Of a stretch of 64,000 nt of DNA, positions 6,187 to 12,399 are shown one piece after another. The stretch lies in NCBI GenBank assembly GCA_014055495.1, contig WIAG01000011.1:1-64000 (forward strand). Direction: 5' to 3'. A model generated the notes under the pieces. It was given only the letters and a program-made list of their open reading frames with translations. It had not been told where the DNA came from and made no database searches. Position numbers and translations under genes: made by a program. Source of the stretch: Nitrospira sp. CR1.2 (GTDB taxonomy: Bacteria > Nitrospirota > Nitrospiria > Nitrospirales > Nitrospiraceae). Position 1 is the stretch's first letter, and each line of letters begins with the position of its first letter.

Positions 6187-6888
6187 TCATCGCGGTGTGG
6201 CATGGGTGACGTCGACACCCTGCGCCTGGCCGACGATCAGAATACTGGTCCGGCCGATGAACAGTCCGGTTTCGACGATGCCGGGGATCTGATTTAATTC
6301 GATCTCCAGCGTGGCCGGGTCGTCGATCTCGGGCATGTGGAGATCGAGGATCACATGGCCGGCCTCGGTTTGAAATACGGTCCCATCACGTTCGCGCAGC
6401 ACGGCCTTGCCGCCGGAGACCTGTTCGATATTGCGAGCGGTGCTGCCCCATCCGAACGGGACAACTTCGATCGGCAGCGGGAAGCTTCCTCCGAGTCCCG
6501 GTACGAGCTTCGTGTGATCGACCATGACGATGAATTGCTTCGCCGCCGCGGCCACAATTTTTTCCTTGAGCAGCGCCCCGCCACCACCTTTCACGAGGTT
6601 CAATTTTGGGTCGACTTGGTCGGCCCCGTCGATGGCGATATCGATCATCCAGGCATTGTCGGACTCGATGAGGGGAATGCCGGATTGTCGTGCCAGCGCG
6701 GCGGTGTCGTGGGAGGTCGGGACGGCCTGAATCTTGAGCCCGGCCCTGACACGCTCGCCCAGGGCCAGAATCAAATGCTTCGAGGTTGTGCCGGTACCCA
6801 GTCCGACAACCATACCGTCACGCACAAATTCGGTTGCCTTCAGGGCGGCTTGTCGTTTCTCAGAATCGAGATCGTATGATGGTGTCAT
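6187..6888 (-). CDS. rpiA: ribose-5-phosphate isomerase A
   Basis: It interconverts ribose-5-phosphate and ribulose-5-phosphate in the non-oxidative pentose phosphate pathway. The 233-residue length is typical. Visible motifs are the phosphate-binding GLGTGTTSKH (about 29-38), DGAD (87-90) and KGGGG (100-104), which form the RpiA active site. The start overlaps the glk stop by four bases (ATGA), so translation is coupled. It sits with pgi, pgl and glk on the same strand; rpe lies elsewhere in the window at 45.5 kb. Confidence 0.97.
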   Translation of the reverse strand: MTPSYDLDSEKRQAALKATEFVRDGMVVGLGTGTTSKHLILALGERVRAGLKIQAVPTSHDTAALARQSGIPLIESDNAWMIDIAIDGADQVDPKLNLVKGGGGALLKEKIVAAAAKQFIVMVDHTKLVPGLGGSFPLPIEVVPFGWGSTARNIEQVSGGKAVLRERDGTVFQTEAGHVILDLHMPEIDDPATLEIELNQIPGIVETGLFIGRTSILIVGQAQGVDVTHATPR

Positions 6889-7970
6889 GATGAGTGTGAT
6901 GAGGTCAGTTGAGCCGCCATGGAGGCGGCGCCAAGTAGGGCCGTTTTGTCGTTCATGACGATCTTCACGGGAATCTGGGTCATCATCCGCTTGTAACGCC
7001 CTTTGTTCGTGAAGCCGCGCATAAACGAACCATCCTGCAGTTTGGTGAGTAATTTGGGTGCGATGCCTCCGGCGACGTAGACGCCGTCCAACGTCAGGGC
7101 CTTCAGTGCCAGGTTGCCCGCCTCTGCGCCGTAAATGGTCGCGAATAAATCCAGCGCCTGCTTGGCGATCTCGGCTTGGCCCTTCAGTCCTGCTTCGGCA
7201 ATCTCCGCGGCCGGGTTGCCGACCTTGATCTTTTCCGCCAGCCAGGTCGGCTCATTTTTCTTGGTGTCGCGGAGATATTCATACACGGCGTGGAGGCCTG
7301 GGCCTGACACGATCCGTTCGTAGCTGACATGCAGGTAACTGCCGCGGAGATGCCGCAGCAACTCAATCTCCGTGTCGCTATTGGGTGCGAAGTCCGTGTG
7401 CCCACCTTCGGAGGGCATGGGGCGATAGCGGGTGCCGTCCCAGTACAGGATACATTCTCCGAGGCCGGTTCCGGCTGCGATGAGGGCCAGGGCTTGCTTC
7501 TTTCTTGGCGGCGTTCCGGCGTTCAGTACGACGAGTTCATCCTGCGTGAGGAGCAGGATGCCATGTGCCGTGGCTTCGAGATCATTAAGAAGTCGCACGT
7601 GGGGAATGGCGAATCGCTCGGCGAGCGTGGCTCCCTCAATGATCCACGGTAGATTCGTGGTGCGACAGCGATTGTCGATGACCGGACCCGCCACGCCGAA
7701 GCACGCGGCGGTCACACGGATCGGTTCGGGAGCCGCTTTAACGGCGTCCGTATCTCCTTCCGGAGCCGCATCACCTGACACTCGTTCCTGGTCGCCCTCA
7801 ATCTCCGGCTTGGCAAGTGGCGTGCTCAGGAATTCTTCGACGATGTCTTCTAAATTTTTGTAGTCCGCGCTGTGGAAACTGTCTTTGCGGACCGGTTCGA
7901 CACGTCCGTTTGTCCACTCGTAGAGGGCCAAATTCGTTTTTGTGCCGCCGATATCACCTGCCAGAATCAT
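6885..7970 (-). CDS. glk: glucokinase (ROK-independent Glk family)
   Basis: It phosphorylates glucose with ATP to glucose-6-phosphate. The start at 7970 gives GDIGGTKTNLALYEW (about 5-19), the ATP-phosphate site, directly at the N-terminus and has a clear AGAGGA ribosome-binding site. A GTGLGE motif lies mid-protein. At 361 residues it is slightly longer than E. coli Glk, because an acidic low-complexity stretch is inserted after about residue 55. It overlaps the pgl stop by four bases (ATGA) and the rpiA start in the same way. It may serve to return glucose from storage polysaccharide to central metabolism; that role is inference from the neighbours. Confidence 0.94.
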   Translation of the reverse strand: MILAGDIGGTKTNLALYEWTNGRVEPVRKDSFHSADYKNLEDIVEEFLSTPLAKPEIEGDQERVSGDAAPEGDTDAVKAAPEPIRVTAACFGVAGPVIDNRCRTTNLPWIIEGATLAERFAIPHVRLLNDLEATAHGILLLTQDELVVLNAGTPPRKKQALALIAAGTGLGECILYWDGTRYRPMPSEGGHTDFAPNSDTEIELLRHLRGSYLHVSYERIVSGPGLHAVYEYLRDTKKNEPTWLAEKIKVGNPAAEIAEAGLKGQAEIAKQALDLFATIYGAEAGNLALKALTLDGVYVAGGIAPKLLTKLQDGSFMRGFTNKGRYKRMMTQIPVKIVMNDKTALLGAASMAAQLTSSHSS

Positions 7971-8749
7971 GGATCCTCTTTCGATGTCGAAGGTGGTGGT
8001 GTCGTGGTCAATTCGGATGCTGCGGCGCGGTCGAGATACCACAACAGCCGTCCGTGCTCAGGCCGAACCATTGCCGCCGGATAGGGGCTTGGCTCGCCGG
8101 CGCTGTTCTCTAGGATGCGTTGAACGACCCCTGCCTTGTTATGCCCCGTGACGAGAAACAGTATCACACTCGCATGATTGATCACACCTAGCGTGATGGT
8201 GATGCGCGACCGAGTTCCCTGTGGAGCGTACCCCGGGACCACCCAACGGGTCGATTCGCCCAACGCCGGAGTACCGGGGAACAGCGAGGCGGTGTGGCCA
8301 TCGTCACCCATCCCTAACAGGATAAGGTCGAACATCGGCCATTGCCCCTCCGGTCCGGCGGTCAGACGACGAAGCAGCGTCTCGTAACGAATCGCAGCTG
8401 CATCCGGCGGATCTTCGCCCCGTATGCGGTGGATCGAGGAATGGGGGATGTGTAACGGGGCGAACAACATCGCCTGGGCAAGGCCAAAATTGCTGTCAGG
8501 GTGCTCAGCGGGAACGCAGCGCTCGTCTCCGAAGAAAAAATGGACCTTCGCCCAGTCCAATCGTTGCGCGATGTGAGGACTCGCGAGGGTGGCGTAGAGT
8601 GCGTTCGGCGTCGATCCGCCGGAGAGCGCCACAAGAAAACGGCTGCGCTTGGCGATCGCGCGCCGTCCCACCTGCAGAAAAAGGTGTGCCGCGGCCTGCA
8701 CTAGTTCCTGCGCGTCTGCGAAGGTATGCAGTTCCGGTGCGGGCGGCAT
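7967..8749 (-). CDS. pgl: 6-phosphogluconolactonase (DevB/SOL family)
   Basis: It hydrolyses 6-phosphogluconolactone to 6-phosphogluconate, the second step of the oxidative pentose phosphate pathway. Family motifs visible are LSGGSTPNALYATLA near residue 40 and FFGDERCVPAEHPDSN near residue 75, with LGMGDDGHTASLFPG in the middle. I chose the ATG at 8749 (MPPAPELHTF), one base after the pgi stop, giving 260 residues. An upstream in-frame ATG at 8842 would bury 93 bases in pgi and adds non-family sequence. Its stop overlaps glk by four bases. Confidence 0.95.
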   Translation of the reverse strand: MPPAPELHTFADAQELVQAAAHLFLQVGRRAIAKRSRFLVALSGGSTPNALYATLASPHIAQRLDWAKVHFFFGDERCVPAEHPDSNFGLAQAMLFAPLHIPHSSIHRIRGEDPPDAAAIRYETLLRRLTAGPEGQWPMFDLILLGMGDDGHTASLFPGTPALGESTRWVVPGYAPQGTRSRITITLGVINHASVILFLVTGHNKAGVVQRILENSAGEPSPYPAAMVRPEHGRLLWYLDRAAASELTTTPPPSTSKEDP

Positions 8750-8750
8750 G

Positions 8751-10457
8751 TCAGCGACGGGCCCGACGTGCTGAGGGAGTCGGGCTGGTTGTCGCAGGCC
8801 TCTTCCGACTGACACGCGCGGCCGGAGCGACCAGTGCAACAAGCCGGCGTATGGCGCGAACAGGATCTGCCCCTAGGCTGATTCGAACGGCAGGACGCTG
8901 GTGGCTGTGCAGCGACTGAAGATCGCCAAGTGCCTGGGCTTGCGCGAGCGTACCGAATGTATAGGACTGTTCCGGAATCGGGAGATCCGGCTTCATGGCA
9001 TCGACCAACTCCAGAAACAATCCACTGTTGGGGCCACCCTTGTGCAGCTGTCCTGTCGAGTGCAGATAGCGTGGGCCATACCCGGCCGTGGTGGCCAAGT
9101 GATGCCGAGTCATGATCCCCTTGCGTAAGGCACGCAGTGCGGCATCAATTCTGGGGCTCGGAGTCGTGTACGCGAGAATCGCCACATATCGATGAGGTGC
9201 CGCTTGCTCAAGCAACTGCGCAAGTGCCTGCCGGGAGGGCGGCGTCGGCAGTGCCGGAAGTCGTCCTCGACTGTCGACCTCCTTCAAGACGCGGGCGGTG
9301 TTGTCTTTACTTTCCTGAACATTCGGCTGATCGAATGGATGAATCCCGAGGACATGGCCGGCGACCGCGGTAGCGAATTCCCAACGGAAGAATTCCGCGC
9401 CCAGATCGTACCGATCGTTGAGGTTGAGTCGGAAGATCGGGTGTCCGGCCTTGTGCAGGGCGGCGAGGTTTCGGTCCAACGACGCATTCCGGTCGCCCTT
9501 CAGTCGAAGGGAGACGAAAAATCGATCGGCACCATAGGCGGACGGAGGGGCAAGGGGTTCTCCTGCAATGGGGACGAGCCCCGTTCCTTCCTTGCCGGTA
9601 CTTTCCGCCAGGAGTTGCTCCACCCAGAGTCCGAACGAATTCAGTGTGGGGGAGGTGAGGAGGGTCACTTTGTCGCGTCCGGCTCGGGCCATGGCCGCCA
9701 TTGTGCTTCCCAGGATGGCGCCCGGATTGTCTTGTGGTGAAGCCCTATGCCGGCAGGCTTCCCGCATTGCGAGGGCTCGGGTGAGGAGTTTTTCGACATT
9801 GAGTCCGAGGAGTGCCGCAGGAACCAGGCCGAAATAGGAGAGCACTGAGTAACGCCCACCGATGTCTGGTTGGTTGGTGAAGATGCGCCAAAACCCGCGT
9901 TCGCGCGCCAGTCGTTCCAGGCCTGTACCGGGATCCGTGATGGCGACAAACTGGGCTCCGCCGCGATGGCCTCTGGTTCGGTGGGCGAGGTTCCAGAAGT
10001 GGGTGAAGAGGGACATCACTTCGATCGTTCCGCCTGATTTGCTGGCAACAAGGAAGAGGGTACGCGCCGGCTGAATGGCGTTGGTCACGCGCCGCACCCA
10101 ACCGGGAACCGTTGAGTCAAGCACCCAGAGTCTTGGGGCGCCTTGAGATGGGCCAAACGTGCATCGTAAGACCTCGGGACCGAGGCTGCTCCCGCCCATG
10201 CCGAGCAGGACTACGTCGGTGATACGAGCTTCCCGGACCGCTTGCGCAAAGGTTCGCAAATCGGAGATTCCGTCTTGCATCTGATCGAGTACCGTCAGCC
10301 AGCCGAGGCGGTTTTCAATTTCTGCCGGGTTGGGCTTCCATACGGTGTGGTCTCGAGTCCAGATCCGCTCGATGGTGTGGCTTCCGGCGAGATCTTCAAG
10401 TATTCGGGTGCTGGCCTCGTCGGTCGGTCGTGACGGTGGGTTGGGGCGGATCGGCAT
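8751..10457 (-). CDS. pgi: glucose-6-phosphate isomerase
   Basis: It interconverts glucose-6-phosphate and fructose-6-phosphate. Visible are the sugar-phosphate-binding SIS-type motifs LLGMGGSSLGPEVL (about 84-97) and SKSGGTIEVM, then GGRYSVLSYFGLVP, and a C-terminal YLHSTGQLHKGGP segment typical of the family. The 568-residue protein resembles the isomerase half of transaldolase/isomerase fusions found in several bacteria rather than E. coli Pgi; here it stands alone. It is the first gene of the string pgi-pgl-glk-rpiA-aminopeptidase. Confidence 0.94.
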   Translation of the reverse strand: MPIRPNPPSRPTDEASTRILEDLAGSHTIERIWTRDHTVWKPNPAEIENRLGWLTVLDQMQDGISDLRTFAQAVREARITDVVLLGMGGSSLGPEVLRCTFGPSQGAPRLWVLDSTVPGWVRRVTNAIQPARTLFLVASKSGGTIEVMSLFTHFWNLAHRTRGHRGGAQFVAITDPGTGLERLARERGFWRIFTNQPDIGGRYSVLSYFGLVPAALLGLNVEKLLTRALAMREACRHRASPQDNPGAILGSTMAAMARAGRDKVTLLTSPTLNSFGLWVEQLLAESTGKEGTGLVPIAGEPLAPPSAYGADRFFVSLRLKGDRNASLDRNLAALHKAGHPIFRLNLNDRYDLGAEFFRWEFATAVAGHVLGIHPFDQPNVQESKDNTARVLKEVDSRGRLPALPTPPSRQALAQLLEQAAPHRYVAILAYTTPSPRIDAALRALRKGIMTRHHLATTAGYGPRYLHSTGQLHKGGPNSGLFLELVDAMKPDLPIPEQSYTFGTLAQAQALGDLQSLHSHQRPAVRISLGADPVRAIRRLVALVAPAARVSRKRPATTSPTPSARRARR

Positions 10458-10629
10458 AACACGCTCTTTTCCATGAGGTGGAGGAACGACAATGCACGTC
10501 GGCTCTGTCGTATATTAGGTTCGGGAATTCAAAAAGGCAAACAGGTGGATGGCAAGGTCGGTCAGGAGATGGGGGCACGCGTGGCAGAAGCGGATGCGAT
10601 CGACTTAGTTCGAGGGGATGATCGAGATG

Positions 10630-11778
10630 CTAGGTTTCTTCTTCCTGATCGCCCAGGTCGGCTAGGACGAGTGAAATAGAGTTGTGTGATTCCAACGCAC
10701 CGACAATGTTGACCGGTGTGCCTACAGCTACCTGATCGAACAGCACGGCAATCTGTGGATTGTCCAACACGATGCTGCCGTATGGCTGGTCCGTGATGCC
10801 CTGGGCCATCCCATGAAGCTGAATCAGCCCAGGCATCTGCCGGTTTTTGGGAATCAGGCCCGCTTGTTGCGCAGCTTCAAACCGACGTCGGTCATCCGCG
10901 TTGGGGTAATCAAGAATCAAGGCACGAAAATAGGGCGTTTGCCCCGGTCCACGTTTGCGCTGGATGCGATATTCGCCCTCCGGGGTCGCGCCATCTCCGT
11001 AGTGTTGTTTCGCACGGATGCCTCTCGAGCCCAGGCGGATCGGGTAGGTCAGAATTTTCCTGCCGCTTTTATACACGGTGAGGACGCGGTCGGCTTTGCT
11101 GACCACAATGGCATGCGCTCGGTTTTTTCGAGACCAGTCGATGGTGCGTTGTGCAGATTCCCGCCAGGCGGCGATCAGGTCGTCGTCGGCGTACCGTCCT
11201 AGTTCATTCGTGAGCAGAGCGGTTTGGGTCAGGAGGATCTTGCCTGCGCGTTCGGAGGCCTGATTCGCATACTCAAACTGTCCCTGCTCAAGGTAATGGC
11301 GCGCCTGCTTTACGAGCAGTTCGGTCTCGAGCGGATGTTCGCCGAGCACCACGCGACTGCCGATGTCTCCAACGCGGGTGTTCAGGAGCCGCACGCGTTG
11401 CTCGACTTTGGCCAGCTTGGCTTCTGCTGCGGTTCGTTGCGCGAGGATTTGGCTGTTCACCTCAGCTATGAGCTGAGTTCCTTCTGCCTGAAGCGCTTCC
11501 AAATCCGTTTCCAGCTCGTTATCTTCCCAAGGCCATCGAACGATATTCTCCTCCGACCGGACGCGGCCTCTGAGGGCCATCCATTGGCGTGAAAACTTGG
11601 AATACGCCTCGGGCGTGATTGTTGAGGCTCGCAAGGTGCCGAGATCACGATCAATGCTTTCGATCGCTTCTACCAATTCTTCAGGCACGGTCTCGACGCA
11701 CCCGCCCATACTCATCGAGAAAAGGCCAATGAGTGCCATGCGCGAAACGGTGCGAAGGATGTTGAACGTCTGATCCAT
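10630..11778 (-). CDS. lipoprotein with YkuD (L,D-transpeptidase-like) domain lacking the catalytic Cys
   Basis: The 382-residue product has a lipoprotein signal (SMGGC, Cys27), a long helical, probably coiled-coil middle (about 30-215) and a C-terminal YkuD domain (about 222-360). Typical YkuD features are present: GDGATPEGEYRI (261-272), LDYPN (289-293) and LHG with His322. YkuD L,D-transpeptidases need HG-x(n)-GC, but here the position reads YGSIVLDN, so Ser335 (AGC at 10774-10776) replaces Cys. Known members with Cys crosslink peptidoglycan or attach lipoproteins to it. This one is either catalytically altered or binds peptidoglycan without transpeptidation. It is 172 bases downstream of nothing on its own strand and precedes pgi. 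Confidence 0.85.
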   Translation of the reverse strand: MDQTFNILRTVSRMALIGLFSMSMGGCVETVPEELVEAIESIDRDLGTLRASTITPEAYSKFSRQWMALRGRVRSEENIVRWPWEDNELETDLEALQAEGTQLIAEVNSQILAQRTAAEAKLAKVEQRVRLLNTRVGDIGSRVVLGEHPLETELLVKQARHYLEQGQFEYANQASERAGKILLTQTALLTNELGRYADDDLIAAWRESAQRTIDWSRKNRAHAIVVSKADRVLTVYKSGRKILTYPIRLGSRGIRAKQHYGDGATPEGEYRIQRKRGPGQTPYFRALILDYPNADDRRRFEAAQQAGLIPKNRQMPGLIQLHGMAQGITDQPYGSIVLDNPQIAVLFDQVAVGTPVNIVGALESHNSISLVLADLGDQEEET

Positions 11779-12261: not shown

Positions 12262-12399
12262 ATGTCGTTCACTTTTAAGCAGCCCTCGAATCTCAAGCGC
12301 AAGCGGGAGCACGGATTTCGGAAGCGCATGAGCACCAAAAACGGCCGAAAAGTCATCGCTCGTCGTCGAGCCAAAGGCCGTGCTCGTCTCACCGTCTGA
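12262..12399 (+). CDS. rpmH: 50S ribosomal protein L34
   Basis: The 45-residue basic protein is the large-subunit protein L34. It starts [19 protein letters not shown] and contains [19 protein letters not shown], the L34 signature. AAGGAG precedes the ATG. It opens the conserved order rpmH-rnpA-yidD-yidC-mnmE-mnmG behind a consensus promoter. Confidence 0.98.

Follow-up and report, generated by a model that had tools for sequence, protein, structure and literature searches.

Among proteins of the YkuD fold, L,D-transpeptidases as a rule carry an Arg two residues after the catalytic Cys, and DpaA-like proteins mostly have Ala or Asn at this position, as described in PMC8263019. Lys83 of DpaA and Lys107 of Csd6 are reported to bind the D-centre carboxylate of mDAP (PMC10653827). 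Replacement of the catalytic Cys is known from inactive laboratory mutants, namely LdtMt2 C354S (PMC11410929) and DpaA C143A (PMC8263019). According to the experiments described in PMC11410929, LdtMt2 C354S converted none of the four fragments offered into product; one of them is a non-substrate for the native enzyme, too. A search of the open-access literature, which leaves subscription journals mostly outside, retrieved no report of a natural Cys-less YkuD pseudoenzyme or of such a case in Nitrospira (Nitrospira and YkuD occurred together in a paper on polymorphic toxins), and a word search of a 2025 review on LD-transpeptidases (PMC12729407) returned neither "pseudoenzyme" nor "Nitrospira". 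In the Nitrospira locus described here, the same Cys change was fixed naturally across a genus and appears to have been followed by tighter rather than looser selection; nature thereby provides a way of testing which function a YkuD pocket serves when catalysis is gone.

The window, i.e., the whole stretch of 64,000 nucleotides that was analysed, belongs to a genome of 4.06 Mb, whose genus includes "Candidatus Nitrospira defluvii" (the G023 match at 320816–321943 coincides in position with the FP929003 locus L074). As claimed by the earlier note, the reading frame at 10630–11778 encodes a YkuD lipoprotein; it is located on the minus strand, and the plus-strand frame is interrupted by stops. 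The features of the locus are as follows.

10630..11778, minus strand: gene of the Cys-less YkuD lipoprotein, 382 aa
11698..11709, minus strand: lipobox MGGC, residues 24–27, with Cys27 within
11122..11697, minus strand: N-terminal all-helical domain, residues 28–219, from the structure model
10705..11112, minus strand: YkuD domain, residues 223–358, from Pfam PF03734 and VIA-align
11008..11010, minus strand: Lys257, aligned with the Lys of DpaA (GPKQ) and of Csd6
10975..10998, minus strand: GDGATPEG motif, residues 261–268
10813..10815, minus strand: His322, the catalytic base position, kept
10774..10776, minus strand: Ser335 at the position of the catalytic Cys, codon AGC
10458..10629, minus strand: 172-bp gap between the lipoprotein gene and pgi, where sister genera have a YkuD partner and a third ORF
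8751..10457, minus strand: pgi, the downstream syntenic anchor, from Pfam PGI and synteny
12262..12399, plus strand: rpmH, the divergent upstream syntenic anchor

The protein begins with a signal sequence and a lipobox, as expected for a bacterial lipoprotein. Cys27 of this lipobox is the sole Cys among the 382 residues, and it is present in all 28 sequences of the Ser-bearing clade and in all 65 Cys-bearing sequences with an adjoining partner gene that are compared below. PF03734 matched residues 223–358 with 55.9 bits (cut-off 23.4), and the motifs read by the earlier note, GDGATPEGEY, LHG (with His322), and YGSIVLDN (with Ser335 at the nucleophile site), are present. After the YkuD match, 24 residues remain, and a C-terminal NTF2 domain is absent. 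For the N-terminal domain (residues 28–219), no Pfam family reached its cut-off, and VIA-align returned a single row, a designed helical repeat (Z 9.2, rmsd 19.7). On the divergent upstream side, the lipoprotein gene is followed by rpmH and, further on, yidC. The minus-strand row at 6885–10457 comprises ORFs for glucokinase, a 6-phosphogluconolactonase-like protein, and glucose-6-phosphate isomerase, whose ends overlap as listed.

An orthologue of the lipoprotein was found in 28 of the 29 genomes of the genus, the window's copy counted; the genome lacking it (G009) is 88% complete and consists of about 1030 contigs. The orthologues are of full length and 77–95% identical to the window protein. 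The earlier note had proposed to check the conservation of the Ser, and position 335 is occupied by Ser in 27 orthologues, by Gly in one (G025, otherwise 95% identical), and by Cys in none. Ser was also found at each of the 16 named loci that belong to this clade (L069–L084, including "Ca. N. defluvii" FP929003, L074) and in a sister-genus copy with 74% identity (L149 of G069), which, together with 27 sequences from the genus, gives the 28 distinct rows of the Ser clade. The mature protein is free of Cys in all of these rows. Two objections that the earlier note had raised against itself were thereby rejected: a sequencing error, since Cys occurs in 0 of the 28 genus orthologues, and a different active-site Cys, since the mature protein holds none.

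Outside this clade, Cys was present in all eight single copies taken from eight other genera of the family. Among the best 80 of 216 relatives (named loci), 63 carry Cys and 17 Ser (L069–L084 and L126). The Cys-bearing orthologues have the motif LGC[VIL]ML instead of the HGCIRLDN that the earlier note had expected: in all 65 partner-bearing loci, Leu replaces the second His and Met occupies Cys+2. The mature proteins of these loci contain one Cys in 64 cases and two in one case. Judged from the aligned sequences, what has actually changed is Cys335, now Ser, together with Leu333, now Tyr or Phe. His322, the base of the HG motif, is retained in every row of both sets (28 of the Ser clade, 65 of the Cys forms with a partner). 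A distant orthologue with 38% identity (L160 of G065) has lost Cys to Gly (TGGMMLDN) and lacks an adjoining partner; this is possibly a further independent Cys loss. In a genome from another family of the order (L039), two Cys-bearing relatives (SGC and NGC) are located approximately 8 kb apart, and their N-terminal starts resemble membrane anchors, not lipoboxes.

The nearest solved proteins in a profile search were DpaA (8ikr), Bd1075 (7o21), and Csd6 (4xzz), and DpaA and 7o21 led in a single-sequence search as well. In HMMER alignments, Lys257 pairs with a Lys of DpaA, Bd1075, and Csd6, and it is kept in all 28 Ser-clade rows and all 65 Cys-bearing rows with a partner. The aligned Lys of DpaA is taken to be Lys83, counted on the E. 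coli sequence, and that of Csd6 is presumably Lys107. The Arg at Cys+2 is absent, the position being occupied by Val, Leu, or Gln in the Ser clade and by the above-mentioned Met in the partner-bearing Cys forms. Because the Lys of the LD-carboxypeptidases and DpaA is present and the transpeptidase Arg is absent, the Cys form is probably a hydrolase. The family is thus probably part of the LD-carboxypeptidase/DpaA branch, with mixed evidence from the fold, and the label "L,D-transpeptidase", under which the earlier note had placed the protein, is probably wrong.

The structure models of the Ser form and the Cys form had a mean pLDDT of 80.7 and 82.3, respectively, with pocket loops of low confidence (pLDDT < 50) at residues 251–263, which include Lys257, and 326–333 in the Ser model and at residues 249–259 in the Cys model. 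For the Ser model, VIA-align placed Bd1075 (Z 13.1, rmsd 2.1, 124 aligned) and Csd6 (Z 12.7, rmsd 2.5, 124 aligned) in a tie, with Pgp2 (Z 11.3, rmsd 3.0, 126 aligned) and B. subtilis YkuD (Z 11.3, rmsd 2.3, 106 aligned) behind them; in Foldseek, LdtMt1 of M. tuberculosis came first (E 6.3e-5) and DpaA fourth (E 4.6e-4). For the Cys model, B. subtilis YkuD (Z 15.7, rmsd 2.3, 105 aligned), LdtMt1 (Z 15.7, rmsd 2.1, 101 aligned), and Bd1075 (Z 15.1, rmsd 2.5, 131 aligned) were tied.

Most of the Cys-bearing relatives have a second YkuD gene of about 207–225 aa with the motif THGC[IV]RL directly downstream. The order in the sister genera is lipoprotein, YkuD partner, a third secreted ORF, and pgi; at the window's locus, the partner and the third ORF are both missing, and pgi is next. 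Measured from the tblastn match, pgi starts 124–205 bp past the lipoprotein at the 17 Ser loci (the 16 named ones and L149). At 45 of the 64 loci L085–L148, pgi is present on the available sequence, in 41 cases at a distance of 1.4–1.8 kb and in four cases at 475–663 bp, the latter including the Ser-bearing L126.

The presence of partner and Cys was compared for 108 distinct loci, four of which lie at a contig end and were left unjudged. An intact adjoining partner was found at 65 loci, all of them with Cys, and the partner is absent from all 29 non-Cys loci (Ser or Gly) with a readable flank. Five loci have Cys without an intact partner (L085, L088, L159, L164, and L100, the last with a remnant), and at five partner-less loci the YkuD domain is lost. 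The association of Cys and partner is one-way and without exception among the loci compared, and it rests on few independent events: a sign test, in which the domain-lost rows were scored as Cys-less, comprised three independent pairs, too few for it to become significant (median p 0.5). In the tree, the Ser clade forms one group (SH-aLRT 99), L126, known from a single MAG, represents a separate Cys loss, and the Gly form L160 sits on a long branch whose placement is unsure. Parsimony on substitutions alone counts two Cys-loss changes because the long-branched L160 groups with the Ser clade, which is unsupported (38).

A partner match (E 1e-10) was obtained in 118 of 175 genomes of the family, one of which (G170) is a remnant with stops, and in none of the 29 genomes of the window's genus; a relocation of the partner to another site was rejected at this sensitivity. 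The lipoprotein matched in 158 of the 175 genomes, truncated matches counted. The third ORF was found at 61 of the 65 partner loci (of the other four, one shows a short match and three have flanks of less than 1300 bp) and, among partner-less loci, as a short match in L126 only. In N. moscoviensis (L087:7809–8456), this ORF encodes a secreted protein of 215 aa. The third ORF of the sister loci had no Pfam match, and its profile showed weak similarity to the start of the partner YkuD (45 columns, 61% probability). From their motifs, the Cys form is probably a hydrolase and the THGCIRL partner a transpeptidase. That Cys loss goes together with partner loss suggests that, in Nitrospiraceae, two enzymes of one fold, a transpeptidase and a hydrolase, cooperate as a pair.

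Of the 28 genomes of the genus that have a PF03734 match, 15, among them "Ca. N. defluvii", gave no second one (E 0.001). The genus has 14 accessory YkuDs, with Cys in all 10 that were read by motif; they align with the partner over short stretches only (≤109 residues). The window's genome itself encodes one more YkuD of 196 aa with an intact TRGC on another contig (L001, G000:C94). VanW was found in none of the 29 genus genomes; the control matched in four genomes.

The selection acting on the Ser form was compared with that on the Cys forms by median dN/dS (NG86, pairs with dS 0.05–1.2 only). The ratios, which are rough because the dS medians of the Ser genus are high (0.79–0.92) and the pairs non-independent, were 0.079 for the N-terminal domain, 0.038 for the YkuD domain, and 0.025 for the active-site segments in the Ser genus (81–109 of 351 pairs, 27 sequences), versus 0.103, 0.091, and 0.052 in the partner-bearing Cys loci (191–269 of 2080 pairs, 65 sequences). 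The YkuD domain of the Ser genus has the lowest ratio of the groups compared; by this measure, the Ser form is not decaying. Lys257, His322, Gly323, Gly334, and Asn340 are invariant across the Ser clade, and D262, T265, P266, and G268 are invariant in the 28 Ser-clade and the 65 partner-bearing Cys rows. Fourteen positions are fixed to different residues in the two clades, 12 in the YkuD domain (140 positions), one in the N-terminal domain (193 positions), and residue 369. From the Cys to the Ser clade, they include Glu256 to Ala, Gln260 to Tyr, Thr332 to Pro, and Cys335 to Ser. The excess of such switches in the YkuD domain over the N-terminal domain was significant for all positions (Fisher p 0.0002) and borderline among positions fixed in both clades (12/69 vs. 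1/34, p 0.056).

Plain decay, in which the enzyme became useless once the partner was lost and is now on its way out, is the course that genus g30 of the same family appears to have taken. Here, the partner is missing in L085, L088, L126, and L164 and present as a remnant in L100 (43%, E 5e-12 in tblastn), and the lipoprotein either carries Ser for Cys (L126/L150), has an in-frame deletion that removes the loop with Lys257 and most of TPEG (L164), or has lost the YkuD domain, with in-frame stops (five genomes, L165–L169). The window's genus, however, keeps the full length and high identity of 28 orthologues and the lowest YkuD dN/dS, and decay is an unlikely explanation for it. The same five g30 genomes retain an open N-terminal lipoprotein ORF without YkuD (dN/dS 0.157; six pairs, four sequences), as would be expected if the YkuD domain were a folded scaffold only and the conserved function resided in the N-terminal helical lipoprotein domain. 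However, these ORFs are shortened and stop near, but before, the domain end, the matches continue beyond stop codons in four of five, and they may be young pseudogenes. Since, in addition, the YkuD domain of the Ser genus is under tighter constraint than the N-terminal domain, with its active-site segments the tightest of all, a mere scaffold role seems improbable.

The strong constraint on the pocket, the presence of Ser in all genus orthologues but one (27/28), and the retained His322 could also indicate that Ser335 is a working nucleophile and the protein a serine variant of a YkuD hydrolase. Lpg1514 of Legionella, which has the YkuD fold, hydrolyses beta-lactams via Ser132, and the tested YafK homologues do likewise according to the Discussion of the same report (PMC13400389). 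However, Ser132 lies off the Cys position and Cys174 is retained (PMC13400389), and Lpg1514 therefore provides no precedent for Cys-to-Ser catalysis. The Gly335 of G025, joined by the Gly in the distant L160, argues against Ser as the nucleophile, and LdtMt2 C354S is inactive (PMC11410929). In principle, a Ser close to a His might retain activity towards a bond of higher reactivity; as a whole, we give the serine nucleophile little credence. Of the two options offered by the earlier note, the Ser-based variant is thus unlikely, and the pseudo-enzyme gained ground from the absence of Cys in 28 of 28 mature proteins, the inactive C354S mutant, and the Gly of a congener.

The best reading of the Ser form is a pseudoenzyme, not a serine transpeptidase. 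Because the catalytic residue and the partner genes are lost and the rest is kept more strictly than in the working relatives, it is probably a wall-binding protein. That Lys257, His322, Gly323, Gly334, and Asn340 have been retained where constraint is strongest suggests that the pocket continues to bind a ligand, for which the peptidoglycan stem would be the natural candidate. A peptidoglycan-binding pseudoenzyme, probably descended from the LD-carboxypeptidase/DpaA branch, is in our estimation a fairly likely identity, with the binding as its putative part.

The course of events may have been the following. Originally, a YkuD-fold lipoprotein hydrolase, probably of the LD-carboxypeptidase/DpaA branch, would have worked together with a separate YkuD transpeptidase encoded by the adjoining gene. 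The ancestor of this Nitrospira lineage would have lost both the partner and the third ORF, its Cys nucleophile would have been replaced by Ser, and the pocket would have been remodelled and then frozen. The gene loss, the Cys loss, and the frozen pocket emerge from the comparison of sequences; their order and direction are what we infer. Today, the protein is most likely non-catalytic, and the ligand of the kept pocket (Lys257, His322, Gly334) would probably be the stem peptide of peptidoglycan, held by its diaminopimelate end. The lipid anchor and the helical domain would hold the protein in a membrane, so that at the wall it might act as a tether, a competitor, or a sensor.

In a more far-reaching version, put forward tentatively, the loss of the partner transpeptidase freed an LD-carboxypeptidase-type lipoprotein from catalysis, and its dead site was refitted genus-wide as a strictly conserved non-covalent receptor of peptidoglycan stems that ties a membrane to the wall, with no canonical YkuD (PF03734) enzyme left in about half of the sampled species. 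The coupling with partner loss further predicts that "Ca. N. defluvii", which was enriched from activated sludge (PMC4070959), is devoid of peptidoglycan cross-links made by YkuD enzymes. A link to cell shape, an idea derived from the shape-determining LD-carboxypeptidases, is not claimed, since the descriptions of both "Ca. N. defluvii" and N. moscoviensis include a spiral shape beside other forms (PMC4070959; see also PMC13049253).

Compared with the known systems, the window protein shares the fold and the TPEG and HG motifs with the canonical YkuD transpeptidases (the THGCIRLND partner and LdtMt2), but it lacks the Cys, the Arg at +2, and the His of HGC. From Lpg1514, it differs in the spacing between the His and the Cys position, which is 13 here and 8 there (His166/Cys174; PMC13400389). 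The best PDB sequence match is DpaA (8ikr; E 1.2e-5 with the window protein, 2.1e-6 with the Cys-form profile), and the absence of Arg at Cys+2 is a further likeness to DpaA/YafK; however, the window protein has no nucleophilic Cys, it scores 23.1 bits against the 365-bit cut-off of NCBIfam NF040599 (LdtF_DpaA_YafK), and the family has Val, Leu, Gln, or Met at the position where DpaA-like proteins mostly have Ala or Asn (PMC8263019). The shape-determining LD-carboxypeptidases Bd1075 (Bdellovibrio), Csd6 (Helicobacter), and Pgp2 (Campylobacter) lead VIA-align for the Ser model, and Bd1075 has a His–Cys pair without the HGC histidine, with His141, Ala142, and Cys156 as its triad (PMC8938487). 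These three proteins have a Cys and a C-terminal NTF2 domain, whereas the window protein combines Ser with a lipobox and an N-terminal helical domain.
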